From Bdellovibrionia bacterium (GTDB taxonomy: Bacteria; Bdellovibrionota; Bdellovibrionia; Bdellovibrionales; JAGQZY01), in NCBI GenBank assembly GCA_030424665.1, contig JAUHWN010000028.1, forward strand, positions 1 to 33,937: DNA of 33,937 nt. The letters are read 5' to 3'. The position numbers were made by a program, and so were the translations under genes. Under the pieces are notes generated by a model that did no database searches, was not told the origin of the DNA, and worked only from the letters and a program-made list of their open reading frames with translations. This document shows positions 12,809-31,912 of the stretch, in pieces (position 1 is the stretch's first letter; every line of letters begins with the position of its first letter).

Positions 12809-15800
12809 TTACTCCAGGGAACAGGTCGGAGGAGTGATATCAATTTGCGGAGTGGTTTCGACATAGAAATCACTCGTTCTGCGATTGAAGGACCGCTGTC
12901 CGCGGAAAAAGCGTCCGGGCCAACGATTGTAGTCAGCATAGTATTCAAATAGAGGCTGTCCGATTTCAAACTCATAAACCATCTTATCGGGGTGGTTTGT
13001 GGGAAGTGACTTGTCTCGACATTCAAAATCTTTTACAGCTCCTAAAATATCATCAAATGTTCGCGTTTCCGCTTGAACTCGCTTCTTTACCATTTCGTCA
13101 AGCTGAGCCCTTAAATGCTCTGACACGGGAAAGACAAATTTATTATGCTCAGCCTGGTTTTGAATTTTTGAATATTCAAGAGCGTCTTCAAACACATGTG
13201 GATAATCAATCGTATCAATTCGTTTTAAGGGGGCATCATCAATTGACCCTTGGGATGTGACATCACTCGATGGCCAAACAATCCATGATCCTATGCGCTC
13301 AAAACTCGAGACGTAAAGGAGCCAATAAAAGTAGGGTTCCGGTTCGAGGGATTCATCATTGAGCATAATATCTATAAGACTGCTTTCGTTACCAATTTCG
13401 AGAAGCGTATCTCTTTCAAAATATCTCAAAATTTCTTTCGTCTCATCAGACATCTCATAATACTTTCTAAAGCGAGCAATATAATCGACGATAGACTCGG
13501 GTTTTAAATGTTCTGGGATGCGATCGGTCTGTCCGAGGTGATTCATGATTCTTTGGTAGTTGATCCAGTTCTGATAGGTGTCTCTGAGGGGAAAGATCAT
13601 AGAATTCATGTGCCCTGCCTTTAGCCACAAGACATAGTTGTCGGTAGTCCGAAGTACTTTTTTTACAAACTCATCGACATCTGGAACATAGCTAATTCTC
13701 TGGTTTTCCCGATTCGTATATAAATTTCTTGTAACGTCGTCGCGTGTAAAGTCCGTAGGAATTTTAACTCTGGCATAGTCAATCAGCTCCTCCATGTGTT
13801 CTTTAGCACGAATCAGGAGATCCATCTTGTGATAGAGAAAATGTTCACCAGTAATCTCATCATATCCGCGATAAGAATTAGGATAATCCGAAAAACGAGT
13901 AAAACTGAGGTCTGGGCTTTGGCCACTTCTGATTTCGGTCATCGCCTGGTGGACTTTTTTAATATGAGCTATTTCATTAGACATAATAGAAACCATTACG
14001 TCTTTGTCCTTTGTTACAAGGTCGAGGTAACACTCATCGTAGTTTTGCGAGAGACGACTTACACCTTCAAGGTAACTATTGAGTTGATTAAGAGCATTAG
14101 TTCTCAGGCGGTTCACTGGAGCGAGCTTACTTTCAATGTCTGCTGAATCCAGATTGAGGCGAGTCGCAAAGTGATTGCGAAGATTGCTCACTAGGGCGTC
14201 TGCAAACTGTATGTCTCTGAGTATTATCAATTTGTAGGCCTCGAGTTCCTCTGCCATTTGTAGTGAGTAGGGGTTTAGAGCAACCTGCCCATTACTCGTG
14301 GTTTGTCGAGTGATGGCGCGAGTAAATACCCCAAGTGTTGGCTTGATTGAGAAATCGGTGATCTTGACTTGTGAGGAATAGCCACCGTCTCCTTGGGCAG
14401 CCTGGCACAATGACAAGAATTCTTGATAAAAACTATTGTCATCGTGACGGTGAATAGACCAATTTTCTAGATCGAGAAGCATCTGAAGTCGAGATTCGAC
14501 GACAATTTCATAGAAGACTTTAATGTAGTCAAAAGGATCTATGCCCAATTGATCAAAACTGAGGGTCTTGAGCGCAAAATCAAAGACATAGGCGAGTTGA
14601 TAAAAATTGAGTTTCTTTTCTCCTGCTGAATAGTTATCAGTAGTTACGCCATACTTAAAAAGAAGTGGGAATTTCCGTAGATGATTATCTCGGAACGTCC
14701 GAATCATACTCTCGTATTTCTTTGTAGTCGCTGAGACACCACCAATTCTGACCCTAGACTCAATTTGTCTTTTTGAAATGTAGTAAATCGCCATAAGGTG
14801 ATGATTGTAAGAGATTAAGAACTTTATATTTTCCTTTAAGTAGTTGAAAAAAGCTTTGACCCCTCTATTATCGAGACCTTCAATTTCTCTCAAAGCTCCA
14901 GTGGACTCGCTAAAACCACGAATTCGATCGACTCGAGTTAGAAAACCAAGCACCTTCACTGTCGAAAGTTCCGAGACTCGAATCGCCTCTTCGATGACTT
15001 CACTCTTTGCGATGGTTTCGTCAGAAAAAACTCTTGCTTGAGATTTATTGGTCGACAGAATTAGATGAGCTAATTGAATTTTCAAATATTCGTAACTGAT
15101 GTTGTTGAATTCTTGAAGGGACTTTTGGCTCGCTTGCCAAATCCAGCTGATTTCGTCGATCCCGAGACGGTTATAGAATAGAGCGTCCACAATCCAGAAA
15201 TATTCATTGCGCTGAATTGAAACATCGAGATCTAGATTTGTGATCATAAGAGAGTGACTTGAAGAGATTTCTCGTAATCGTGATTCGAAGCTATCAGGTT
15301 CATTTCGCCTGGATTCAATGGAATTGGTTACCTCAGGGTTCACCTGTCCATCTATATAGAGTCCAAGTTCAAGACCTTTTTGAAAAATCAGGCGGGAAAG
15401 GGGGTCCCTTAGCTCTGCTCTCGTCAAGTTGAAAACATTGAGCTGCTGTACAAGTCGAGTGATTTCCTCTTCGCTACCATTTTCAAGAAAAATTTCTAAT
15501 ACTTCAGCCGTTAACTCGTTAAAAGTTTGTCGATCGACAAGAGCTATTCTCTCGCCTCTCTCACTTGAAAAAAGGGTTTCAAGCGATCGAATATTTTTAA
15601 GGTATGCGAATAGAATAGTATTGTTCACGTCTCTTGAGCGTCTTTCGAGGTAGAGGTGAAGGACCGTATAAAAACGCTTAACCTTGTCAGCACTTTCTAG
15701 ATTGTTTTCATGAATTTTCACCCATTTCTCTAGGACTAAGGCAAACAATGGGGAACTCGTAAGAACCGGCAAGAGAGGGCAATCATTGGCTTCAACTGTA

Positions 15801-16183
15801 CAGTTATAGAGTAAGCTCTCGATAACGAATTCAACTTCAGATTCATTATTTTCAATTTCTAGGACATTTTCGTACCAATTGTTTATGAGTTCTCGAGTTT
15901 CTTCCTGATTTGTTTTGTATTGTGCAATGAGTTGGTCTCTGTCGATGAGAAAGCTTCTGTATTCATTAACAACAAAATGAGGGTCGTCACCTTCAGAGCC
16001 AAGTCGTAAGAGGTGATGCGGGAATTGAAGTTCTTCTTCGCCATCTGAAATCAGGTTCCGATCGCTATCGATGGCCTGTTCATGATGTATAATAGACCGA
16101 GTAGGGAGGTCGCAAGCAGCCAAGAGAAGAAGTAGACAGACTAAGAAAACTCGAAATTTGAGTTGTAAAGGGTAGAGGGACAT
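12809..16183 (-). CDS. giant lipoprotein of unknown family, paralogue of its upstream neighbour
   Basis: The product is 1124 aa. The start at 16183 is preferred because the last codons of the preceding gene (GAGGAGG) give its ribosome site; the stop TAA is only two bases before this ATG. Signal peptide with lipobox LAAC at Cys24, followed by Asp: in E. coli Asp at +2 holds a lipoprotein in the inner membrane. The rest is predicted mostly helical, with no catalytic motif that I recognise. A Y-N-CT-5 residues-C pair near residue 125 and a later DEC are shared with the 1187-aa neighbour, as are NEYFWIVD and KENIKFL. Third gene of a three-gene operon. Function unknown. Confidence 0.9.
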   Translation of the reverse strand: MSLYPLQLKFRVFLVCLLLLLAACDLPTRSIIHHEQAIDSDRNLISDGEEELQFPHHLLRLGSEGDDPHFVVNEYRSFLIDRDQLIAQYKTNQEETRELINNWYENVLEIENNESEVEFVIESLLYNCTVEANDCPLLPVLTSSPLFALVLEKWVKIHENNLESADKVKRFYTVLHLYLERRSRDVNNTILFAYLKNIRSLETLFSSERGERIALVDRQTFNELTAEVLEIFLENGSEEEITRLVQQLNVFNLTRAELRDPLSRLIFQKGLELGLYIDGQVNPEVTNSIESRRNEPDSFESRLREISSSHSLMITNLDLDVSIQRNEYFWIVDALFYNRLGIDEISWIWQASQKSLQEFNNISYEYLKIQLAHLILSTNKSQARVFSDETIAKSEVIEEAIRVSELSTVKVLGFLTRVDRIRGFSESTGALREIEGLDNRGVKAFFNYLKENIKFLISYNHHLMAIYYISKRQIESRVRIGGVSATTKKYESMIRTFRDNHLRKFPLLFKYGVTTDNYSAGEKKLNFYQLAYVFDFALKTLSFDQLGIDPFDYIKVFYEIVVESRLQMLLDLENWSIHRHDDNSFYQEFLSLCQAAQGDGGYSSQVKITDFSIKPTLGVFTRAITRQTTSNGQVALNPYSLQMAEELEAYKLIILRDIQFADALVSNLRNHFATRLNLDSADIESKLAPVNRLRTNALNQLNSYLEGVSRLSQNYDECYLDLVTKDKDVMVSIMSNEIAHIKKVHQAMTEIRSGQSPDLSFTRFSDYPNSYRGYDEITGEHFLYHKMDLLIRAKEHMEELIDYARVKIPTDFTRDDVTRNLYTNRENQRISYVPDVDEFVKKVLRTTDNYVLWLKAGHMNSMIFPLRDTYQNWINYQRIMNHLGQTDRIPEHLKPESIVDYIARFRKYYEMSDETKEILRYFERDTLLEIGNESSLIDIMLNDESLEPEPYFYWLLYVSSFERIGSWIVWPSSDVTSQGSIDDAPLKRIDTIDYPHVFEDALEYSKIQNQAEHNKFVFPVSEHLRAQLDEMVKKRVQAETRTFDDILGAVKDFECRDKSLPTNHPDKMVYEFEIGQPLFEYYADYNRWPGRFFRGQRSFNRRTSDFYVETTPQIDITPPTCSLE

Positions 16184-16185
16184 TG

Positions 16186-19100
16186 TTAATTTCCCTCCTC
16201 TCCCTGAGTGCACAGCGACAGGTGATTATTGCTATTATAGAAGTTTTTGGACTCTCGGGTAAAAAGAGCTTCTCGGTTACTAGCATTTCTTAGATCGCGA
16301 TCGTTAATATAGGTGCGGTTGTCCTCAAATCTAAAATCTCCGGGGCGAGTTCCTATGCCCACGAATTGAGTTGTCTCAATTGTGTTTCCGAGGGAGAGCT
16401 CAAGGTTGATCGCACTGATTCGATCCTGAAAAGAATTCGAATCTCTATTTTCTCTGATGACATCAGCAAGACGATTAATTTTTTCAAACCGATCATTGAC
16501 AATGCTGTCATAAGAGTCAAAAACGCTTTGGCAAAAGTACGTTTTTGGAGGAAATATCAAGTAAACTATATCACGTAAAGCAAGACCGGCTTGCTCGGCG
16601 TCTTTCATGATACCTGTTCCATCCTCGAATCGATACCCTTGATCAAAAAGTGTACCTCGATAAATATTTTCAAATATAGGAATTACCGCATCTGAGTTTC
16701 TCACAAAGATAAAGTCTTTAATATCATTTCTAGGCATAAAATCCGTTTTTCCTATATAGAAGAGTACGTCTTTATACTCTTCGGGTAGACTGACGATTTC
16801 TCTGGATCGGACCGCCTCTTCGAGAAGCTCTTGGGGTTCGATTTTTGCGATACAGTCTTGACCACCACTATCGTTTTGAGTGGTTTCGTCGCATACGGAA
16901 GGATTTTGCTCAGCCAATTCACTTGGAACCTTAAAAGGGCTCAATTTGTAAAAATTTTGAATCACCTTCTCTTTGTGTCGAACATCCTTGCCATTTTTAT
17001 AATACTCGAGCCACTTAAAAATTGATCCTGAGTTGTAAACGAGAATCCGGAGGGCGTTGCGAACAAAATCTATTTCTGAGTCGCCGATTCTTACCTGACG
17101 GCTATTGGGACTGTTGATGAAATCGATTCCATCGGTGTCTTCAAGTTCGATGACCCGAGTTTCTACCCCAATACTATCGGTTAATGTATAGGGAGAATTC
17201 GTTACTGATTCGAGTGTACTATTGAGTCTCTTAGTTATTCTTTCATAGGCTCCGTACTTGGTAATTACATACTGGGGATACTCGATATTGTCGGCTCCTA
17301 ATAGAGGTCCAACCTCTTCTTCGAACTTTGCACGATCGAAGCTTTCGCCATGGGTTTTTGCACTTTGATAAATTCTTTTGAAGTAGTTGATTTCGTCTCT
17401 CAATATATCGAAAACTCTAGAGCGCGTATGTCTATAAACCTTATCACTACAATCGTTAACCATGCGATGTATGTAATAGAGAGTTCCGATGTAGTTTTCC
17501 CGCAATTCTTCGATTTCGGCAATAATACGGTTGATTTGCTGAATTTCAGGGGAACCCTCTTGATACTCTCCTTTGTCCTTCAAGTATTGAAAGTAAATAT
17601 CTATGAGATTTCTGACTCTTATGATTTCTTTTTCATAACCAAAGGCGACTGACTGAAAGTCATTGATCGAACCCCATCCATATATTTTGAATGCAAGACC
17701 AAAGGGCGAAGATCCGACTTCACCAGACCCAATGAGAACATTAGAATCTAAGCTCAAGTAGTCGATAATCGACTTGTAGTTGTTTGGATTTTCACAATAC
17801 AGTTTGAGTTCGTTTAAGTTGTTTTCATTTAAAAAGCTATCGTTGAAATCACGAATTTTTCCATCGAGATCAGTTCTGATGGGGTCCAGATATTGGCCCA
17901 GTACTTTTTCGAAGAATTTTGTTCGCGTGATCGATTCTTCACCCGTAGATTCATTTTGAAAACGGAAAACATCTAAGCTCTCTGATACGATAATGTAGTA
18001 GTAGGCCAGTGCAATTTCACCCTTTGAGAGTTTGACAGAGTCCTTAGCGTAGTTAAACCACGGTCGAAAGCCACCGTTAAGCATATAGCGTATAACTATT
18101 GTTGGATCGACTTCGACTTGAGCGCCGAACCATGTAGTAAAAGTAAATGGTGAGTCTAAAGCCGATAAGAAATAGCTGAGAATTAGCATGTTGGGGTAGA
18201 TGCTTAGAAGTTTGATATTAGATTTCAAGCTATTGGTAAAGTCTTGGAGTTCACGGAAGCTAGAAAAGTTTTGCTGAAAGCTCGGTATAGAAGCTCTAGC
18301 GAAAATATTAAGCATTTCAGTTCCGAGAATTAAACGGTCCCAAAGATTGTTGAGCGAGTAGCTTTCATTAACTGTTACTTCAAACATTTCATTGTTTGCG
18401 AAATTTTCAGCTCGATAGATATCTGTAAAACCCTCATTAGTTAAATAGATGGTTTTTGCAAATTCGATTTTTAGGTACTTTATGATCCAGCTGACCAGGA
18501 CATCTTTGTCTTTACGTGAGTTCGCCCAAATTCGATCGGCGTACTCCGATGATATATGCTGATTATAAAGTCGATCGATGATAAAGAAATATTCATTAGC
18601 TAGCTTGTCAGGGCTGTATTCATCGAGATCGATACCATAATTAGAGAAGAATCCAGGTGTTTTTTCGAGAATTCGTTGAATCTCTTGGTAAAAGCTAGGG
18701 TTCGTGCCGTTTCCATTTTCTTGGTAATTTCTTATCTGTTCTTTTAACTGTGGGTTCAGTTCACCAGTTTCTCGGTCGTAGAGGTAGTATTGCGAAGCGA
18801 AATCAAACATTCGTGCGGTACCAAGCTGCAGGCCAGAACTTTCACGTTCACTATAATTCCAAGGATTAAAGTTATCGATAAAAGCTCGAAATTCTGGAGA
18901 GTAAGGGTCACTGACTTCAAAATTATTGATGATCGAGTTAAAAAGGTCGATTTGTGCTGAGAGCGGAGCATATTGCCTATAATCGAGGGCTTCAATTTCG
19001 TTGGCAGGTTTACCAAGAGTTTCAGCGTATTCATGAATCAACCACGCTTGGTAGCCCTTGAAAAAGTTGAGGTATATGAAATTAAGTCGCGGCATTTCTG

Positions 19101-19749
19101 ACCGAGACTTGATTTCGTAAGTCAAAAGAATAGCCTGGTAAAGGTCTCTAAATGGTCGCAATTCCTCTTTCTGGGCCGCTTCAAGGCAAAGTTCTGAACG
19201 GCAGGCAGATTCTCTAACGGCAATAGCCTTGCGTGAAACATACTCGAGTAGGACGTAGGCAGAGTATGCACTACCCTTAAAGATACGCTCAAATTTGCAT
19301 TCACGCATTTTCTGTGTACAGCCGTAAGAAACAACCTGATAGTAATTTTCGAGAAACTCGTCAGAAAGACTTTCGGGGCTTTTCTGTAAAATGGCGTGAA
19401 GAGCTGTATCCATGGACCTAATGAGGCGCATGGTTTTTAGCTCAAAGCGAATGTGAAGTTGTTCGAGAACTTCTGCCTTCATAAGACCGTTAAATAGAGG
19501 CTCTACTATTTCATTAAAGATGGCATCTGCCGACTTATTACTGAGCGCTTCATTACGTACTGAGGCTTCGACTTGATCGGCATCAAATTGGGCGAGAACC
19601 TCTTCGGCATCGGCTTCAAGCACGCGAGTTTGACGAACCTCTGGGCTGAGTCTGTTCTCATGATCCAGACGAGTCACTTTTTTGCTATCACAAGCGGTGA
19701 TAGCAAGAGATAGGAATGTGAGAATTATAACTATCCTATTCACTGACAT
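16186..19749 (-). CDS. giant lipoprotein of unknown family (second gene of operon)
   Basis: The product is 1187 aa. Signal peptide and lipobox ITAC with lipid Cys20, again followed by Asp. The remainder is mostly helical, with acidic/aromatic segments such as NEYFFIIDRLYNQ and YLKIEFAKTIYLTN. No enzyme motif is recognisable. The protein aligns by eye over most of its length with the 1124-aa neighbour (see findings). The ATG overlaps the end of the upstream protease gene by 14 bp, with AGGGTGA just before it, so translation is probably coupled. There is no similarity that I can name to secretion systems or porins. Envelope component associated with the protease (inference from operon only). 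Confidence 0.9.
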   Translation of the reverse strand: MSVNRIVIILTFLSLAITACDSKKVTRLDHENRLSPEVRQTRVLEADAEEVLAQFDADQVEASVRNEALSNKSADAIFNEIVEPLFNGLMKAEVLEQLHIRFELKTMRLIRSMDTALHAILQKSPESLSDEFLENYYQVVSYGCTQKMRECKFERIFKGSAYSAYVLLEYVSRKAIAVRESACRSELCLEAAQKEELRPFRDLYQAILLTYEIKSRSEMPRLNFIYLNFFKGYQAWLIHEYAETLGKPANEIEALDYRQYAPLSAQIDLFNSIINNFEVSDPYSPEFRAFIDNFNPWNYSERESSGLQLGTARMFDFASQYYLYDRETGELNPQLKEQIRNYQENGNGTNPSFYQEIQRILEKTPGFFSNYGIDLDEYSPDKLANEYFFIIDRLYNQHISSEYADRIWANSRKDKDVLVSWIIKYLKIEFAKTIYLTNEGFTDIYRAENFANNEMFEVTVNESYSLNNLWDRLILGTEMLNIFARASIPSFQQNFSSFRELQDFTNSLKSNIKLLSIYPNMLILSYFLSALDSPFTFTTWFGAQVEVDPTIVIRYMLNGGFRPWFNYAKDSVKLSKGEIALAYYYIIVSESLDVFRFQNESTGEESITRTKFFEKVLGQYLDPIRTDLDGKIRDFNDSFLNENNLNELKLYCENPNNYKSIIDYLSLDSNVLIGSGEVGSSPFGLAFKIYGWGSINDFQSVAFGYEKEIIRVRNLIDIYFQYLKDKGEYQEGSPEIQQINRIIAEIEELRENYIGTLYYIHRMVNDCSDKVYRHTRSRVFDILRDEINYFKRIYQSAKTHGESFDRAKFEEEVGPLLGADNIEYPQYVITKYGAYERITKRLNSTLESVTNSPYTLTDSIGVETRVIELEDTDGIDFINSPNSRQVRIGDSEIDFVRNALRILVYNSGSIFKWLEYYKNGKDVRHKEKVIQNFYKLSPFKVPSELAEQNPSVCDETTQNDSGGQDCIAKIEPQELLEEAVRSREIVSLPEEYKDVLFYIGKTDFMPRNDIKDFIFVRNSDAVIPIFENIYRGTLFDQGYRFEDGTGIMKDAEQAGLALRDIVYLIFPPKTYFCQSVFDSYDSIVNDRFEKINRLADVIRENRDSNSFQDRISAINLELSLGNTIETTQFVGIGTRPGDFRFEDNRTYINDRDLRNASNREALFTRESKNFYNSNNHLSLCTQGEEGN

Positions 19750-22700
19750 TCACCCTAAAGATATACGGGAACCACCAGTAGCCATTGAGTAGGCCGGCCG
19801 CCGATAGAGCGGCTGCAATTCCCTTTGTCGATTCGAAGCAATTATCTTCACTGACACCAGTGATTTCTTCGAACTTGTTAAATTCTGTCTGAATACTTCG
19901 TTTAAAAATACGATCGAGTTCGGTCGAAGTGGCAATTCCCTTAGGAATGCGAAAGCCCTCAAATTGGGGAGTGGTCGTGAAGTATTGATTAAGTCCCTTG
20001 TCACCTTCTATACATGACTTGAGAACATCATTGTATTTAGTGAGAAGTTTTTCTTTAACGCCAAGTTCAGCGAGTTGGTCATCCTCGCTACGATTGATCG
20101 TTACCATATAGGCAAAAGAGTAAGCCGCTGAATCGCTGAAGAACTTAATTGGGGTCAGCGGGTAAATGATCATATCGTTGGCTCGCGCCACGATGTGACC
20201 TTCTGGAAGTATGTAGGCATCTTGCCCATCAATTTCTTTTCGCGAAAGAGGATCAAATATCGTGAGTTTAAACCTCTTGTAGAGTTCAGGAGTACCGCTA
20301 TCGATTCCCTGTAGGATTAGAACGGCTACTTGTGGTTCAAGTTTAGTTTGATCATAGATTTTCTCCATATATCGAAGAGGGAATCTATGGTTATCGTTGT
20401 TTGTGCGTGACCATCCAGAGAGATAGCCCATCCATGAAACGGCTTTACCAACAAAGGTCGCTTCATCGCCAAGGGATTGAAAACGAAGGTTTGAGGTTAA
20501 GGCGGAACCGAGAGTGTCCGTATATTCTCTTGGGTAGAGCGAACCCATAAAGTAGTTGGCGTCGGATTGACCGTAATAAAATGCGTAGCCAAAAGGGGTC
20601 ATCACCTTTGGAGACATCAATTGAAAGAGAGACGAAACCTTGAGCGGCAGGTTTGTCATCTGCGACCAGGTCCCCAGAAAACGAGAAAAGTCTCTACGCT
20701 GATCTCCTCCACGGATTCCGCCTGGTAGGTAATAGTCTTCGTGGTTGTATCGTGTCGAATCTACTAGGGGTTTAGTGAGGATCTTTTTGAACTCTTCTAT
20801 GTTCTGTTTGTTGGTTTCACAGAGATCCTTGAATTCAGAGTTCTGACTAAAAATTTCTCTGAGAAGTGGGTGTTCAATTTCTTCAACATTTTCTTTAGCA
20901 CAAGCCGTAGAGAATTGATAGAGTGCCTGTTGATCCTCAGAAATTCTTTGAATTTCTGGCTCAAATTTTCTTCTCATGTAGTCGTAAAAAAGGCGAATTC
21001 GACCGGTCATCGATATCGCTTTATACCAAAGATAGCCTTCGACTCGATCTGCACCTGCAGAGTTGTCTGTAAAAGAATAAAGGTACTGAATAAGATTGTC
21101 TGTTAAATCTTTCCAGTAGTTGTTTGCAACCTCTTGATAGGTTGTGCCTCGGTCCCAGCGGTTGCACATAGGGTCGTAGTAGTAACTGGCTTCCATATCG
21201 TTACAAGATGGGAAGTAAGCAACTTCAAAGGCTTCTGTTGAGTCTTCGTCACAAGGAATTGATTGGTAGACGACTTCTCCAGAGTTTGGATTATAGGGTT
21301 TACTGGCAGTCGCTGGTTGATCAGAGCAAGTGAATTGCGGAATGCGACCATCAGCAGGGACTTTAAAGAAAGAAAAGGTTTCTGCACCGGAGCCCGTTTT
21401 ATAGCCAGGGTATTCTTGGTTGTAAAGGTAGCGCAGAACTAACTTGTCGTGTTCGCCAGGTTTGATTTTTTCGAGATCAGAGTGAACCTCGGTCGTTCCA
21501 TGGCGATAATCCATGATCGACGAAAAATAATTGTACCCGGCCTCTTCGGTCGCCATTTCCGCCATCGCTTGGTACATCGCCGGTGGAACTCGCTCAGGAT
21601 CTGGCAGAAGGTTTCCTTTAAACTGATGTCCGAGTCCTAAGAAGTGTCCATATTCGTGCATGGTGAGATCAGTAATTACCGATTCAATGGCATCATTCAC
21701 ATTTGGAGTTTCGCCGCGTTCTGTAGAAGCCATCCATTGTGTCGACATCATTTCGAAATTGCGATCAAGTCCGAATACATTTCTTGCTGCCATGACTGCT
21801 TCAGGAATTTCTGGAAGTGAGTTTTCAGGGTCAGATCGTAGCAATTCTTCTTGTGCCTGGGTCTCGGCGTTTTCTTCATAGCCTGGAAGGTAAAGATAGT
21901 CTTCTAGAGATTTATTGCTAATTTCTGCCTGAACATCGTGTTGGTAGCGACCAATAAGACTATTCAAAGAGCCAGCGATGTTTTCTATCTCGCGTCGAGA
22001 GATGGAAGTGTCATCATTAAGATCAGTGAGCATTCGGCTTAATTCGGCTCGACGGTTGGTGGCATCAGTACTTGTCTGCCCCTGGAGTTCGTCGAGTTGA
22101 AATTGGATGAGATTTCTATAGTCACCAACAAGGGATTGACCAGTAAAGCCGGCAAGAGCTTGCCCCGTATAGTCGAGAGATCGAGGGAAGGGGAGTTCTC
22201 TTTCTTCGAGGCCAAGAATTCGGTAGGGACTTATGCGGGCCATGGTTGCAGACGATGGTGCACTCGGCGCAATATATCTATTTATATAGCGCTCGATCAT
22301 TCCCCCATAAATTACGATTCCACCCCAGAGAATTTCACCGTTACGAACATCGGCATGGGTTTGACCTACACCGAGGGGAGAACGAGCGGAAATTTCTTGG
22401 TCGTCGACCCAGTAAATGCTCGGGTATCGCAAATCAAAAGGATATTTAAGTTCTTTAACCTCAGGAATAAATACTTTATGACCTTCGGGAACAGCTCCCA
22501 CATCAACAAAGGCATCATTCCATTTCTCGACGACATTTTTAACAGTCTCTATATATTTGTCTGGAACATGACTGAGGTAGACCTTGTGTTGCTTACTTAA
22601 ATCCCAGTGAGCGGCATAAAGAAGCTGGTAAAGACCATCGGCCTTTTGCCCCATAATGTGCAAGATATTCATATACTTCTGAACCGTTGGGTCCATGGGA

Positions 22701-23431
22701 GTTTTTACGAAGTTGGGATTGTGTTCGAAGGCCTTAAAATTCACTCGAATTCGACCTTGTAAGTTTTCGCCGTACTGTTCAGACTGAGCGTATACAGTGA
22801 GTCCTAAGAAGCCAGTTTCTGGATCCCATTCAACATCGTAGACATCGACGATGCGAGGAGATCCACTCCAAAACCACCCTGCAGAAAGAAGGTTTTCAAA
22901 TCCACTCTTGATGTTTAGGCCCTTGAGGTTGAGTCTAATATAGGGTCGTCGCGACCAGTGACTTCGACTGCTATTTTCTACGAGTTGATTGGTGTCTCGT
23001 CCGCGACCATCTTTGGCCGCCTCTAAGTAGTAGTGTTTTTCGCTGGGAATTTCGAGCCTGTTGGCCCACTTGTCGTGCTGATCGGGAAAGGATGGATTGA
23101 TCCTTTTTGCGATAAGAGCTCGTTCTGTAATTTGAAAGCGAACATTACAGTGGGTGTTGGAGTGAAACATGTGGTAGTTCGCACGATGGGCGGCCCAGCC
23201 AGTCTCTACAACAGGGGCCCAGCCGCAAAGAAAGGTCTTGCTCGAAACCTCAGTTCCACTGCTGAAGGCTTCGCCGAGAAAAAAGGTTTTGCGGATCGAA
23301 TCGTTATCATCGGGAACGGGAACTTCTTGGTCGGGCTTATAAAAGGTACAGTTAGCCAGAGCAAAGCTCAGACTGATTAGCAGAATTAAGTAGCTGACGT
23401 TCGATTTTTTTATAAGACCTAGTTTTCTCAT
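19736..23431 (-). CDS. giant lipoprotein zinc metalloprotease, metzincin type
   Basis: The product is 1231 aa. Residues 1-28 are a lipoprotein signal peptide ending in lipobox LANC (Cys28) with Thr at +2, the type normally sorted to the outer membrane. The zinc site is clear: HEYGHFLGLGH at 592-602 fits HExxHxxGxxH, and a Met-turn SIMDY lies at ~Met640, the spacing expected of metzincins (M10/M43-like). N-terminal segments (VDVYDVEWDPETG, then DVRNGEILWGG) resemble the beta-rich propart of the large zinc-dependent metalloproteases near DUF5117/DUF4953. A long C-terminal half (~650-1231) is not recognised. It is the first gene of a three-gene operon, and no clear SD is seen. Likely an envelope protease; substrate unknown. 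Confidence 0.9.
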   Translation of the reverse strand: MRKLGLIKKSNVSYLILLISLSFALANCTFYKPDQEVPVPDDNDSIRKTFFLGEAFSSGTEVSSKTFLCGWAPVVETGWAAHRANYHMFHSNTHCNVRFQITERALIAKRINPSFPDQHDKWANRLEIPSEKHYYLEAAKDGRGRDTNQLVENSSRSHWSRRPYIRLNLKGLNIKSGFENLLSAGWFWSGSPRIVDVYDVEWDPETGFLGLTVYAQSEQYGENLQGRIRVNFKAFEHNPNFVKTPMDPTVQKYMNILHIMGQKADGLYQLLYAAHWDLSKQHKVYLSHVPDKYIETVKNVVEKWNDAFVDVGAVPEGHKVFIPEVKELKYPFDLRYPSIYWVDDQEISARSPLGVGQTHADVRNGEILWGGIVIYGGMIERYINRYIAPSAPSSATMARISPYRILGLEERELPFPRSLDYTGQALAGFTGQSLVGDYRNLIQFQLDELQGQTSTDATNRRAELSRMLTDLNDDTSISRREIENIAGSLNSLIGRYQHDVQAEISNKSLEDYLYLPGYEENAETQAQEELLRSDPENSLPEIPEAVMAARNVFGLDRNFEMMSTQWMASTERGETPNVNDAIESVITDLTMHEYGHFLGLGHQFKGNLLPDPERVPPAMYQAMAEMATEEAGYNYFSSIMDYRHGTTEVHSDLEKIKPGEHDKLVLRYLYNQEYPGYKTGSGAETFSFFKVPADGRIPQFTCSDQPATASKPYNPNSGEVVYQSIPCDEDSTEAFEVAYFPSCNDMEASYYYDPMCNRWDRGTTYQEVANNYWKDLTDNLIQYLYSFTDNSAGADRVEGYLWYKAISMTGRIRLFYDYMRRKFEPEIQRISEDQQALYQFSTACAKENVEEIEHPLLREIFSQNSEFKDLCETNKQNIEEFKKILTKPLVDSTRYNHEDYYLPGGIRGGDQRRDFSRFLGTWSQMTNLPLKVSSLFQLMSPKVMTPFGYAFYYGQSDANYFMGSLYPREYTDTLGSALTSNLRFQSLGDEATFVGKAVSWMGYLSGWSRTNNDNHRFPLRYMEKIYDQTKLEPQVAVLILQGIDSGTPELYKRFKLTIFDPLSRKEIDGQDAYILPEGHIVARANDMIIYPLTPIKFFSDSAAYSFAYMVTINRSEDDQLAELGVKEKLLTKYNDVLKSCIEGDKGLNQYFTTTPQFEGFRIPKGIATSTELDRIFKRSIQTEFNKFEEITGVSEDNCFESTKGIAAALSAAGLLNGYWWFPYIFRVNVSE

Positions 23432-23647: not shown

Positions 23648-24568
23648 CTAATCTTCATTAATATTAAGTCCACCTGTATTGAGACTTCTCAAGGTATCGA
23701 TGGTAGATATTTGCTGATGATCTTGAAGTTGTCTTAGACCTTCATTGATTGTTGAAGAATCACTTCTTTGAGCAATTTGGGCCCTCAATCGAATCACGGA
23801 TGGATTATCGCAACTGATCGGCAAAAGGAGTCGAGCCAATTGATCTTTATCCACTTTGAGAGATCCATCTTCGCTCGAATTACCAAGGGTATAACTTGAT
23901 TCAGGACTCTCGCTGCAAAAATCTTTTTTAACTTTGATCTCTATAACTCCATCTATCAACTCTTTTGTTGCTGTTGAGCCGAAGTGGAGCCCTCTTCTTT
24001 GATCAAAACCGTCGATATGCCTTAGTGGCCCAAGAGAGTTAAATTCATCTTGAGCACTTTCAAAATCGAGGTGGATCCCTTGTTCACGCCAACGAGTTCT
24101 GAGCGTCTGGTATGTGGCGGCAATGTCAGACTCAGATCTTCTAACCCACCTTCCTATGTGTTCATCAATTTCAGCTTCCATTGAGTTATTCATTCCGGGA
24201 CTTAATTCTACGGAATCTCTATGTAAAAAGAATTCCTGGCGACTTCCGTATTTGCCCCAAAACTCATCTGGGCCATTGTAGCTCATGACTTGTGAATTCA
24301 AGGCTAATCCCCGTGTGTAGAGGCGGCTATGGCCGTGCTGTCTGATATAGTTAGAATTTAGATGCTGGCAATCCTCAACGATCTGACGGAACCTAGGGCT
24401 TTGAATGAGATCGCTCTGTTCAGAGGTAGCCAGTTCAAGATCACTCGTCTGCTCACTGAGATAGCGATTTGCCGAATTTAATCGGTCCTCACAAGACTGG
24501 GCAAATGCACCATCTAAAGAGAATGGGTTTATTAAGCTAAGAAGAACTACAAGTAATGACGATTTCAT
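23648..24568 (-). CDS. exported protein of unknown function
   Basis: The product is 306 aa. A signal peptide of 23 residues ends at AFAQS; the mature protein starts with a Cys soon after (QSCEDRL). A second Cys (EDCQH) and later Cys (DFCSES, SCDNP) could form two disulphides. The mid-region is polar and helical with Arg/Glu pairs; the C-terminus is Gln/Ser/Leu-rich. I recognise no family or active site. A good ribosome site (AAGGAAAG) precedes the ATG, and a near-consensus promoter lies 80-110 nt upstream. It is a monocistronic unit, flanked by the hairpin at 23589-23621. Confidence 0.85.
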   Translation of the reverse strand: MKSSLLVVLLSLINPFSLDGAFAQSCEDRLNSANRYLSEQTSDLELATSEQSDLIQSPRFRQIVEDCQHLNSNYIRQHGHSRLYTRGLALNSQVMSYNGPDEFWGKYGSRQEFFLHRDSVELSPGMNNSMEAEIDEHIGRWVRRSESDIAATYQTLRTRWREQGIHLDFESAQDEFNSLGPLRHIDGFDQRRGLHFGSTATKELIDGVIEIKVKKDFCSESPESSYTLGNSSEDGSLKVDKDQLARLLLPISCDNPSVIRLRAQIAQRSDSSTINEGLRQLQDHQQISTIDTLRSLNTGGLNINED

Positions 24569-28358: not shown

Positions 28359-29867
28359 GTGAAGAACCACAAGGTCCGTGTTTACCCCTCTAAAGAACCC
28401 CTAGCAAAAGAAGATCAACTCGCATGGAAAATGGCAGAAGTCGCCACCGATCCCGTAGCCGTTTCAGCGGGTGCCACCGATATGATCATAAATCGAATTA
28501 TCGATAACGCCTCAGTAGCAATCGCTGCTTCTAACAGAAGACCCGTAGCAAACGCGCGCTCAATGGCTCTCTGTCACCCTCGCAATGGTGGAGCAACGGT
28601 TTTCGGAATGCCAAATGATCAGACCTTCTCTCCTGAGTGGGCTGCCTGGGCCAACGGTACTGCTGTTCGAGAGCTTGATTTTCACGACACCTACTTGGCC
28701 GCCGATTATTCTCACCCCGGTGATAATATCCCGCCGATTTTAGCAGTCGCTCAGACCAAAGGTAAATCGGGAGCTGAGCTCCTTCGCGGTCTTGCAACTG
28801 GGTACGAGCTTCACGTTAATTTGGTAAAAGGAATTTGTCTTCACGAGCACAAAAAAGATCATATTGCTCACCTTTGTCCTGCAAGTGCTGCGGGGATCGG
28901 CACCATGCTTGGCTTGAATACTGATACGGTTTATCAGTCTATTCAGCAGGCTCTTCACGTTTCTTTTTCAACGCGCCAGTCGCGAAAAGGTGAAATTTCG
29001 TCGTGGAAGGCTTTTGCTCCTGCCCATTCTAGCAAGTTAGCCATTGAAGCTGTGGATCGCTGTATGCGTGGCGAAGGGGCTCCGAGTCCAATCTATGAAG
29101 GTGAGGATTCAGTGATTGCTTGGATGCTCGGCGGAAAGGGTGCTTCCTATGTGGTTCCTCTTCCAGAAAAGGGTGAAGCAAAAGACGCCATTCTTGAAAC
29201 TTACACTAAAGAACACTCAGCAGAGTACCAGTCTCAGGCATTGATTGATCTCGCCTTTAGAATGCGTGAAAAGATTTCTAACTTCTCAGATGTAAAAAGC
29301 ATTGTGCTCCATACATCTCATCACACCCATTACGTCATCGGGACTGGGGCTGGCGATCCTCAAAAAATGGATCCAAAGGCAAGTCGCGAAACACTTGATC
29401 ATTCGATAATGTATATTTTTGCTGTAGCGCTTGAAGATGGCTCTTGGCACCATGTCAATAGCTATACTCCAGAAAGAGCGGGTCGCCCAGAGACTGTTGC
29501 TCTTTGGCATAAGATCTCCACAGTGGAAGACCCTAAGTGGACGGAGGCTTATCACGATCCAAATCCTGATAAAAAGCGTTTTGGTGCACGAGTTGTTATT
29601 ACTATGAATAACGGTGATGTCATCGAAGATGAACTTGGCGTGGCAAATGCGCACCCTGCGGGAGCCCGTCCTTTTGTTCGAGAAAACTACATAAAGAAGT
29701 TCGATACCCTTACTGAAGGTATTATTACGCAGGATGAACGCAATCGCTTTATTGATCTCGTTCAAGACCTTCCAAACTTGAGTGTTGATCAAGTGAAGCT
29801 TCTCAACGTACAAATCCCGATGGCCCAACTCGAAATGAACGAGCGTGACCACCGTGGAATTTTCTAA
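28359..29867 (+). CDS. prpD: 2-methylcitrate dehydratase PrpD
   Basis: The product is 502 aa (E. coli PrpD is 483). The start is GTG with AAGGAGA five nt upstream. MmgE/PrpD-family landmarks: a helical N-terminus with [19 protein letters not shown], the conserved [16 protein letters not shown] segment (Asp and His in the active site), [26 protein letters not shown] and a C-terminal SKG/PNLSV region. PrpD removes water from 2-methylcitrate in propionate breakdown, making 2-methyl-cis-aconitate (cytoplasm). prpB follows 8 nt after the stop. A Lys-rich, Asn-containing loop at the very N-terminus is a small addition relative to the E. coli protein. The operon gives strong support to the call. Confidence 0.95.
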
Positions 29868-29875
29868 GGAATGCT

Positions 29876-30781
29876 ATGATTTTTGAAACAACGGCCCCGG
29901 GCCAAAAGCGTAGAAAACTGAGAGAGGACCTCGATTCAGGAAAGCTTTTACAATTTCCAGGAGCCTTTTCTCCCTTAGTGGCGCAGTTGATTGAAGATTT
30001 GGAATTCGATGGCGTCTATATTTCGGGCGGCGTACTTTCAACAGATCTCGCCTTACCTGATATTGGACTCACGACTTTAACGGAAGTGGCACAAAGAGGT
30101 CGGGCCATTTCTCGAGTGACCAACCTTCCTTCGATTATTGATATCGACACGGGCTTTGGTGAACCAATGAGCGTGGCGCGCACGGTAATTGAAATGCAAG
30201 AATTAGGACTCTCAGGAGCCCATCTCGAAGACCAGGTCAATCCAAAGCGCTGTGGGCATCTCGATAATAAGTCGATCGTCAGCCAAGATGAAATGTGTCG
30301 CAAAATTCGAGCGGCCAGTGATGCTAAATTTGACGATAAGTTTTTGTTGATTGCGCGAACCGACTCAAGGGCCTCTGAGGGACTGGATAATGCCATCGCT
30401 CGGGCTAAGGCCTATGTTGATGCTGGTGCCGAAATGATTTTTCCAGAAGCTTTGCAAAACGAGTCAGAGTTTGAACGCTTCCGAAAGGAAATCAAAGTTC
30501 CATTGCTAGCCAATATGACAGAGTTTGGAAAATCAAAACTTCTCGATAAAACCACTCTAGAGAATCTAGGTTTCAATATGGTGATTTATCCGGTAACAGG
30601 GTGGCGCTTAGCCATGAAGGCCGTCGAAGATGGCTTCCGTTCGATCAAAGAAAAGGGCACGCAAGAACCCATTCTCGATCGCATGCAAACGCGAAAGCGC
30701 CTTTACGAGATAGTTCGTTACGAAGAATACAATGATTTTGATAAAGATATTTTTAATTTTTCCCAAGAAGGACACAACTAA
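29876..30781 (+). CDS. prpB: 2-methylisocitrate lyase PrpB
   Basis: The product is 301 aa, the usual size (E. coli 296). It is a PEP-mutase/isocitrate-lyase-superfamily TIM barrel. The Mg-binding pair is in IDIDTGFGEP (Asp89/Asp91), and the lid loop KRCGH at 124-128 carries the catalytic Cys126. LIARTDSRA and EMIFPEAL are further family stretches. It cleaves 2-methylisocitrate to pyruvate and succinate. SD AAGGA overlaps the prpD stop, so translation is probably coupled. prpC follows 12 nt downstream. Confidence 0.96.
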   Translation: MIFETTAPGQKRRKLREDLDSGKLLQFPGAFSPLVAQLIEDLEFDGVYISGGVLSTDLALPDIGLTTLTEVAQRGRAISRVTNLPSIIDIDTGFGEPMSVARTVIEMQELGLSGAHLEDQVNPKRCGHLDNKSIVSQDEMCRKIRAASDAKFDDKFLLIARTDSRASEGLDNAIARAKAYVDAGAEMIFPEALQNESEFERFRKEIKVPLLANMTEFGKSKLLDKTTLENLGFNMVIYPVTGWRLAMKAVEDGFRSIKEKGTQEPILDRMQTRKRLYEIVRYEEYNDFDKDIFNFSQEGHN

Positions 30782-30793
30782 TCCGGAGGAAGT

Positions 30794-31912
30794 ATGTCTA
30801 AAGTAAATGTAAATAAAGGTTTAGAAGGTGCAGTGATTGATACGACATCAGTATCGAAGGTCATGCCCGAAATTAATTCGTTGGTTTATCGCGGCTACCC
30901 CGTACAAGATCTCGCTGAAAACTGCAATTTTGAAGAAGTCGCTTACCTCCTTTGGAATGATGATTTGCCAAATGCTTCTCAGCTCGAAGAGTTCACGAAA
31001 AAAGAACGTTCTCTTCGCCCATTGAGCAAAGCTTGCCTCAATGTCATTAAAGAACTTCCAACAACGACTCATCCTATGGATGCCATTCGCACGGCAGTCA
31101 GTTTTATTGGATGTGAAGATACCGAGCATTGGGACTACGAGGGAAGTGATCGTAAGCGCGAACGGGCAATGAACCTCCTCGCTAAGATTCCAACGGCGAT
31201 TGCTGCATTCTACCGCCATAAAATGGGCAAAGAATATATTGAGCCAAAAACGGACCTCTCGATTGCAGAAAACTTTTTCCACATGTGTTTTGGCGAGGTC
31301 CCTAATAAGGACACAATCAAAGCTTTCGATGTTTCTTTGATTTTGTATGCAGAGCACAGCTTTAATGCTTCGACGTTTACGACTCGGGTAATTACGTCTA
31401 CAACATCCGACCTATATAGTGCAGTTACAGGTGGGATTGGCGCTCTTAAAGGGCCTCTTCACGGTGGTGCTAATGAGCAAGTTATGCACATGATGTTAGA
31501 GGTCGGTGATCCTGATAAGGCGAAAGACTGGATGCTTCAGGCTCTTAAAGACAAGAGAAAAGTCATGGGTTTTGGTCACCGTGTTTATAAGAAAGGTGAC
31601 TCTCGAGTTCCGACCATGAAGAAGTACGCTCAGCTCATGGCCGATTCAACGGGTGAGCAAAAGTGGATGAAAATGTACGATGGCTTAGCTGAAACTATGA
31701 TCGCTGAGAAAAATATTTATCCAAACTTGGATTTCCCTGCAGGTCCTGCTTACTATATGATGGGTTTTGAAATCGATTTCTTCACGCCAATCTTTGTGAT
31801 GAGTCGTATAACTGGTTGGGCAGCTCATATTATCGAGCAAGCAGAGAACAATCGTATTATCCGTCCTCTTTCTGAGTACATCGGACACGGTGAACGTAAA
31901 GTCAGCAAGTAA
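30794..31912 (+). CDS. prpC: 2-methylcitrate synthase PrpC
   Basis: The product is 372 aa, typical of the small citrate-synthase-family enzymes that use propionyl-CoA. Catalytic stretches: GPLHGGANE (active His), GFGHRVYK (second His) and NLDFPAG (Asp), followed by YYMMGFEIDFFTPIFVMSRI with GWAAH, a pattern typical of PrpC rather than of GltA. It condenses propionyl-CoA with oxaloacetate to 2-methylcitrate. CCGGAGGAAGT is a strong ribosome site five nt before the ATG. It is the last gene of the operon, with a terminator 28 nt after the stop. Weak activity with acetyl-CoA is possible. Confidence 0.95.
   Translation: MSKVNVNKGLEGAVIDTTSVSKVMPEINSLVYRGYPVQDLAENCNFEEVAYLLWNDDLPNASQLEEFTKKERSLRPLSKACLNVIKELPTTTHPMDAIRTAVSFIGCEDTEHWDYEGSDRKRERAMNLLAKIPTAIAAFYRHKMGKEYIEPKTDLSIAENFFHMCFGEVPNKDTIKAFDVSLILYAEHSFNASTFTTRVITSTTSDLYSAVTGGIGALKGPLHGGANEQVMHMMLEVGDPDKAKDWMLQALKDKRKVMGFGHRVYKKGDSRVPTMKKYAQLMADSTGEQKWMKMYDGLAETMIAEKNIYPNLDFPAGPAYYMMGFEIDFFTPIFVMSRITGWAAHIIEQAENNRIIRPLSEYIGHGERKVSK

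Follow-up and report, generated by a model that had tools for sequence, protein, structure and literature searches.

The question raised by this locus is what three giant lipoproteins, encoded by tightly coupled genes, might do together in the envelope of a Bdellovibrionia bacterium. The window, by which we mean the whole stretch of 33,937 nt analysed (contig JAUHWN010000028.1), is filled at positions 12809-23431 by three minus-strand lipoprotein genes, denoted here as G1, G2 and G3. The initial annotation described them as a tight trio of lipoproteins above 1100 amino acids (aa) with a 14-bp overlap and a 2-bp spacing, and the open reading frame (ORF) coordinates confirm this (Table 1). The answer that we favour, and that we hold to be about evenly poised between right and wrong, is that the trio forms a protease complex at the outer membrane, in which the metzincin is joined by two helical lipoproteins and a small β-barrel-like protein holds the complex and probably exposes it on the surface. 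The evidence read from the sequences consists of gene order, active-site conservation, lipoboxes, barrel-like features, adjacency and co-inheritance.

In order to assess the distribution of the trio, we performed a phylum-wide profile search of 291 sampled genomes, some of them metagenome-assembled genomes (MAGs), scoring two candidates per genome. Full-length trio-type G1 was found in 17 genomes, and exactly these have the G2 family, apart from two weak N-terminal fragments (Fisher p 7e-28). These genomes span six families, two of them outside the class of the window. The nearest named relative is the Bdellovibrionia MAG JAUICP01, with 99% identity in G1; viral contigs and plasmids yielded no relatives. 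The initial annotation had made its proposal depend on the genes being neighbours in relatives, and there G1, G2 and G3 are almost always adjacent. The trio is found again at more than 20 loci in other genomes, where the gap between neighbouring genes has a median of -1 bp, and this excludes a chance arrangement. Pairwise distance matrices of G1, G2 and G3 from 20 complete loci correlate with r of 0.84-0.91, and those of G1, G2 and G3 with that of the barrel-like protein with r of 0.77-0.83 (0 of 5000 permutations as high in either case), which is evidence of co-inheritance and not of contact. That the three genes are a co-inherited unit is well supported by conservation.

Adjacency and co-inheritance alone are no proof of contact, and the three proteins could have separate envelope tasks, their genes being merely transcribed together. 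We consider this quite improbable in view of the perfect co-occurrence across the 291 genomes, the near-universal coupling of the trio genes and a region of G1 that is present solely where G2 and G3 are present. A scan for promoters and terminators found sites no more frequent than in shuffled sequence. The genus of the window has four trios per genome, which are not recent duplicates, each belonging to a different old subtype. In one of these subtypes, all three trees (G1, G2 and G3) place a trio of this genus (L029) together with a trio from another class (L085), a pattern that would result from repeated loss of old subtypes or from transfer of trios between lineages.

The first gene encodes the protease. 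The initial annotation had pointed to a zinc site and a Met-turn in G1, and both held up: the motif HExxHxxGxxH is intact in 26/26 trio G1 proteins, all of which also have a downstream Met-turn of the SIMDY type, the two hallmarks of the metzincin clan. This conservation supports well the reading of G1 as an active zinc endopeptidase of that clan. In Pfam, all 16 G1-family members searched match DUF4953 (PF16313, 'Met-zincin') best, always with E <0.1 and at best 1.4e-11, and window G1 itself scores 21.7 bits, or 24.4 in the genome search, against a Pfam gathering cut-off of 24.2. Judged by these profile matches, G1 belongs near DUF4953, with which it shares HExxHxxGxxH and the Met-turn. However, the match spans only ~90-150 residues around the active site of a much longer protein, whose C-terminal region occurs in trios only. 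Against the PDB, the metzincin profile gave archaemetzincin as best match (E 0.25), and a structure model of the G1 catalytic region alone had low confidence for a metzincin fold, with a predicted local distance difference test (pLDDT) score of 36.0.

Related metzincin lipoproteins of the phylum occur in simpler barrel-metzincin pairs (pair-type). In a profile-aligned tree, the trio metzincins form one clade with a Shimodaira-Hasegawa-like approximate likelihood ratio test (SH-aLRT) value of 97, and the last ~400 residues of trio G1 have almost no columns filled in the other metzincins of the phylum. Comparison of trio G1 with pair-type proteins by hhalign gave 100% for the core and 2.9% for the C-termini. 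A first value of 44% for the C-termini was discarded, the profile having contained window G1 itself; the lower value was obtained without it. A derivation of G2 and G3 from the C-terminal extension of pair-type metzincins was likewise rejected (hhalign 6.1% and 0.7%). As side observations, the usual Gly at the seventh position is replaced in four pair-type relatives, whose motif reads HExxHxx[N/S]xxH (L112:4812-7865, L120:5623-8532, L127:5373-8222, L128:4403-6832), and the trio metzincin of genome G045 is split near the zinc site into two overlapping ORFs by a frameshift or an assembly error (L045:4555-8390, minus strand).

G2 and G3, described at first as related to each other and without a known family, proved to be so. 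They are 22% identical by BLAST, and their family profiles align by hhalign with a probability of 100% and an E of 1e-90 over 1064 columns, so that they are homologous over the full length; four invariant cysteines stand at equivalent positions in both. Neither gave a credible match in profile searches of Pfam, NCBIfam or PDB sequences. In the lipoprotein tree, the proteins of the second and third positions form two old groups; the one exception, a small one, is L040/L106. This indicates that G2 and G3 are ancient paralogues, separated by a duplication older than the spread of the trio. A G2 structure model built from four sequences is of low confidence (pLDDT 35.5) and mostly helical, a hint, and only a hint, that G2 and G3 are probably mostly helical. 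A 461-aa lipoprotein beside the pair (L083/L084) was considered as a short G2/G3 relative and rejected, as the match lay mainly in the signal peptide. Some closed genomes have a lipoprotein of ~450 aa after the pair (L083:10585-11970, L082:10450-11793), which resembles G2/G3 weakly and mostly within the signal peptide.

The initial annotation regarded the trio as a unit of a protease and two envelope partners. Adjacency and co-inheritance agree with that unit, but the picture was incomplete, lacking a fourth component. In most trio loci of other genera a protein of ~280 aa is encoded between G2 and G3, and in one case ahead of G1. Its sequence begins with a signal peptide, shows hydrophobic residues in alternation and usually ends in Phe. 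A C-terminal Phe is present in 39/66 members of this family vs 6% in the background, and the beta/alpha moment ratio, resting on crude measures, is 1.11 vs 0.94. A signal peptide, amphipathic strands and a C-terminal aromatic residue are the features expected of outer-membrane β-barrels, which the family resembles; among 13 barrels searched, one matched OMP_b-brl, weakly. In the genus of the window, a trio-type barrel is encoded only by an unlinked gene of 404 aa beside a PhoX phosphatase (L099, L100). Trios without a barrel of their own (the genus of the window, L041, L085, L102) all lie in genomes with a trio-type barrel elsewhere. The fixed ratio that the initial annotation had drawn from the tight coupling is not demonstrated, in that the four trios of the genus of the window appear to share this one unlinked barrel. 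The unlinked barrel (L099:10171-11385, minus strand; L100:6693-7907, plus strand) has a Lys-rich stretch of ~120 residues between signal peptide and barrel. In two related genomes orphan barrels from the same family lie without a metzincin, each beside a protein of ~235 aa (L139:7940-8827, L140:7970-8998).

An iterated barrel profile found genes beside almost every related metzincin lipoprotein retrieved, in trios or not. As the profile had been iterated within loci picked for their metzincins, we repeated the adjacency test on 18 whole genomes, which offsets this bias only partly. All 19 long pair-type metzincins had a barrel gene within ~3 kb, and 19 of the 23 strong barrel matches adjoined a long pair-type metzincin (chance estimate ~1e-44). 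Shorter metzincins of 720-950 aa in the same genomes, which served as an internal control, had no strong barrel match nearby. This suggests that the trio elaborates a phylum-wide barrel-metzincin module. The closed genomes of the same order that contain the simpler pair are probably Bdellovibrio. The genus of the window also has two pair-type metzincin lipoproteins of 1420 and 1795 aa, each beside its own barrel (L032:8810-13072, minus strand; L142:6646-12033, plus strand). In several closed genomes, a secreted protein of ~250 aa starting 'IDVIFDIDWTTFY', HAD-like by eye, is encoded between barrel and metzincin (L079:14164-14955, minus strand; L081:4375-5118, plus strand).

On which side of the membrane the proteins act is the next question. 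All three have a signal peptide and a lipobox: LANC-T in G1 (C28), ITAC-D in G2 (C20) and LAAC-D in G3 (C24 counted from the ATG). Directly after the acylated Cys, trio G1 proteins have a proline-rich motif, roughly PxxExPxP. C[AT]K is found in 26/35 pair-type proteins vs 1/35 of the other lipoproteins encoded at these loci, and a His between +7 and +14 in 30/35 G2/G3 proteins vs 4/35 other lipoproteins, counts that come from a small background set and from motifs noticed before counting. Such motifs are compatible with a sorting or docking signal. The inner leaflet is, however, the default fate of a lipoprotein, and the complex could be an envelope protease facing the periplasm. The conserved cysteines fit the oxidising periplasm as well as the surface, and the small barrel lacks a periplasmic export domain. 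A protease of this kind leaves unexplained why there are several divergent trios per genome, patchy between genomes, unlike a housekeeping function, and we judge it rather unlikely.

A surface complex might instead serve feeding. The metzincin would digest prey or environmental proteins at the surface, G2 and G3 would bind and present the substrate, and the barrel would be a peptide-uptake channel. SusCD-type uptake combines an outer-membrane barrel with a helical lipoprotein partner, a combination that the trio shares in outline, its helical partners recalling SusD. Predatory relatives live on prey proteins, and several divergent trios could serve different substrates. However, the G2, G3 and barrel families gave no match to a TonB-dependent receptor or SusD domain, SusC is a much larger barrel, and the genus of the window has one unlinked barrel for its four trios. 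This makes a SusCD-like feeding complex distinctly unlikely.

The surface-exposed complex that we prefer may work like Slam, NalP or SslE, by analogy, while being a member of none. Slam has an N-terminal tetratricopeptide repeat (TPR) domain and a 14-strand barrel of the family DUF560 (PMC7857515, PMC5449769). The likeness is an outer-membrane barrel gene adjoining the lipoprotein genes whose products it may export; the barrels here, however, are of ~280 aa including the signal peptide and outside DUF560, and neither DUF560 nor an N-terminal TPR was matched in 13 barrels. NalP is a lipidated autotransporter protease, with the barrel fused in one polypeptide (PMC7857515). It is similarly a lipid-anchored protease that needs a barrel for its surface exposure, whereas at all loci studied here the barrel has a gene of its own, separate from that of the protease, unlike in a type V autotransporter. 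SslE, a giant surface metalloprotease lipoprotein of the M60-like family exported by type II secretion (PMC4014459), resembles G1 in being a giant zinc metalloprotease lipoprotein in the envelope; no Peptidase M60 domain was matched in 16 G1-family members. No description of the pair or the trio was found in the published literature.

The mechanism that we propose would then be as follows. G1, predicted to be an active metzincin-clan zinc endopeptidase, would be tethered via its N-terminal lipid anchor. G2 and G3, long and probably mostly helical, would have arisen by the ancient duplication and would act as scaffolds or substrate-presenting partners, with the trio-only C-terminal part of G1 as their likely docking site. 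The barrel of ~280 aa, part of the operon in most relatives but encoded by an unlinked gene in the genus of the window, would be the outer-membrane platform. Acting as a helper of the Slam or split-NalP type, it would probably receive the lipidated proteins and display them at the cell surface, and the surface protease would cleave proteins of other cells or of the own cell surface. The physical complex, the surface exposure, and with it the side of the membrane, and the substrates are what we infer. Several observations weigh against this mechanism. The window's own trio has no linked barrel, and some relatives (G011 and G187) have orphan barrels. The barrel assignment comes from sequence features, with a weak match to a known family in one member only. 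Both structure models, of G2 and of the G1 catalytic region, are of low confidence. Asp at +2 is an inner-membrane retention signal in E. coli; it occurs in window G2 and G3, which could speak against outer-membrane sorting, and is found in only 7/35 G2/G3 proteins.

A bolder version, doubtful in our estimate, would be an outer-membrane machine of the phylum's own, unrelated to Slam and autotransporters. Giant protease lipoproteins would be recognised by a short signal that follows the acylated Cys and exported by a small barrel. The trio would be the most elaborate form of this machine, with two helical giants feeding substrates to the protease during contact with other cells.

Table 1 Trio features in the window. 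Positions are those of the window; residue numbers refer to G1.
Feature	Position	Strand	Evidence
G1, metzincin zinc protease lipoprotein, 1231 aa	19736-23431	-	ORF; Pfam DUF4953 match in 16/16 family members; 35-27% full-length identity to trio members
G2, giant lipoprotein, 1187 aa, probably mostly helical	16186-19749	-	ORF; family profile hits the 17 genomes that have trio-type G1
G3, giant lipoprotein, 1124 aa, G2 paralogue	12809-16183	-	ORF; hhalign G2 vs G3 families E 1e-90; positions 2 and 3 separate in tree
Overlap of G1 end and G2 start, 14 bp	19736-19749	-	Coordinates
G2-G3 spacer, 2 bp (G3 ATG at 16183)	16184-16185	-	Coordinates
Acylated Cys28 codon, G1 lipobox (LANC)	23348-23350	-	Invariant in 16-member alignment
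Zinc site HEYGHFLGLGH, residues 592-602	21626-21658	-	HExxHxxGxxH in 26/26 trio members
Met-turn SIMDY, residues 638-642	21506-21520	-	[ST][VI]M[DG]Y at equivalent place in 26/26 trio members
Trio-specific C-terminal region (~residues 830-1231), candidate G2/G3 docking region	19739-20944	-	Filled >90% in trio, ~0% in pair-type

The ATG start of G3 gives a normal signal peptide. An alternative GTG start would extend the ORF to 12809-16213 (1134 aa) and make it overlap G2 by 28 bp. Directly upstream of the trio, the window encodes a 306-aa signal-peptide protein (23648-24568, minus strand). It is neither a barrel nor a member of the set. No counterpart of it was matched in two other genomes or in G001, a near-identical relative in which a mere ~217 bp lie between the transporter gene and G1. 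A complete methylcitrate set (PrpD, PrpB and 2-methylcitrate synthase) is also near the trio (28359-31912, plus strand).

There is a real chance that the trio is a new kind of outer-membrane machine. A 2025 predation proteome highlights proteases other than these (PMC12546842). According to a review, phyla that show surface lipoproteins without Slam must use translocation systems yet to be discovered (PMC7857515), and the barrel-metzincin pair is a concrete candidate for such a system. Here, a protease whose active site is conserved is linked to families that lack a curated description, two of giant lipoproteins and one of barrels, and this in a phylum known for its predators. A docking prediction follows directly from the G1 region that tracks the presence of G2 and G3, and the simpler pair, present in closed genomes of the same order that are probably Bdellovibrio, would make the module testable in a tractable predator.
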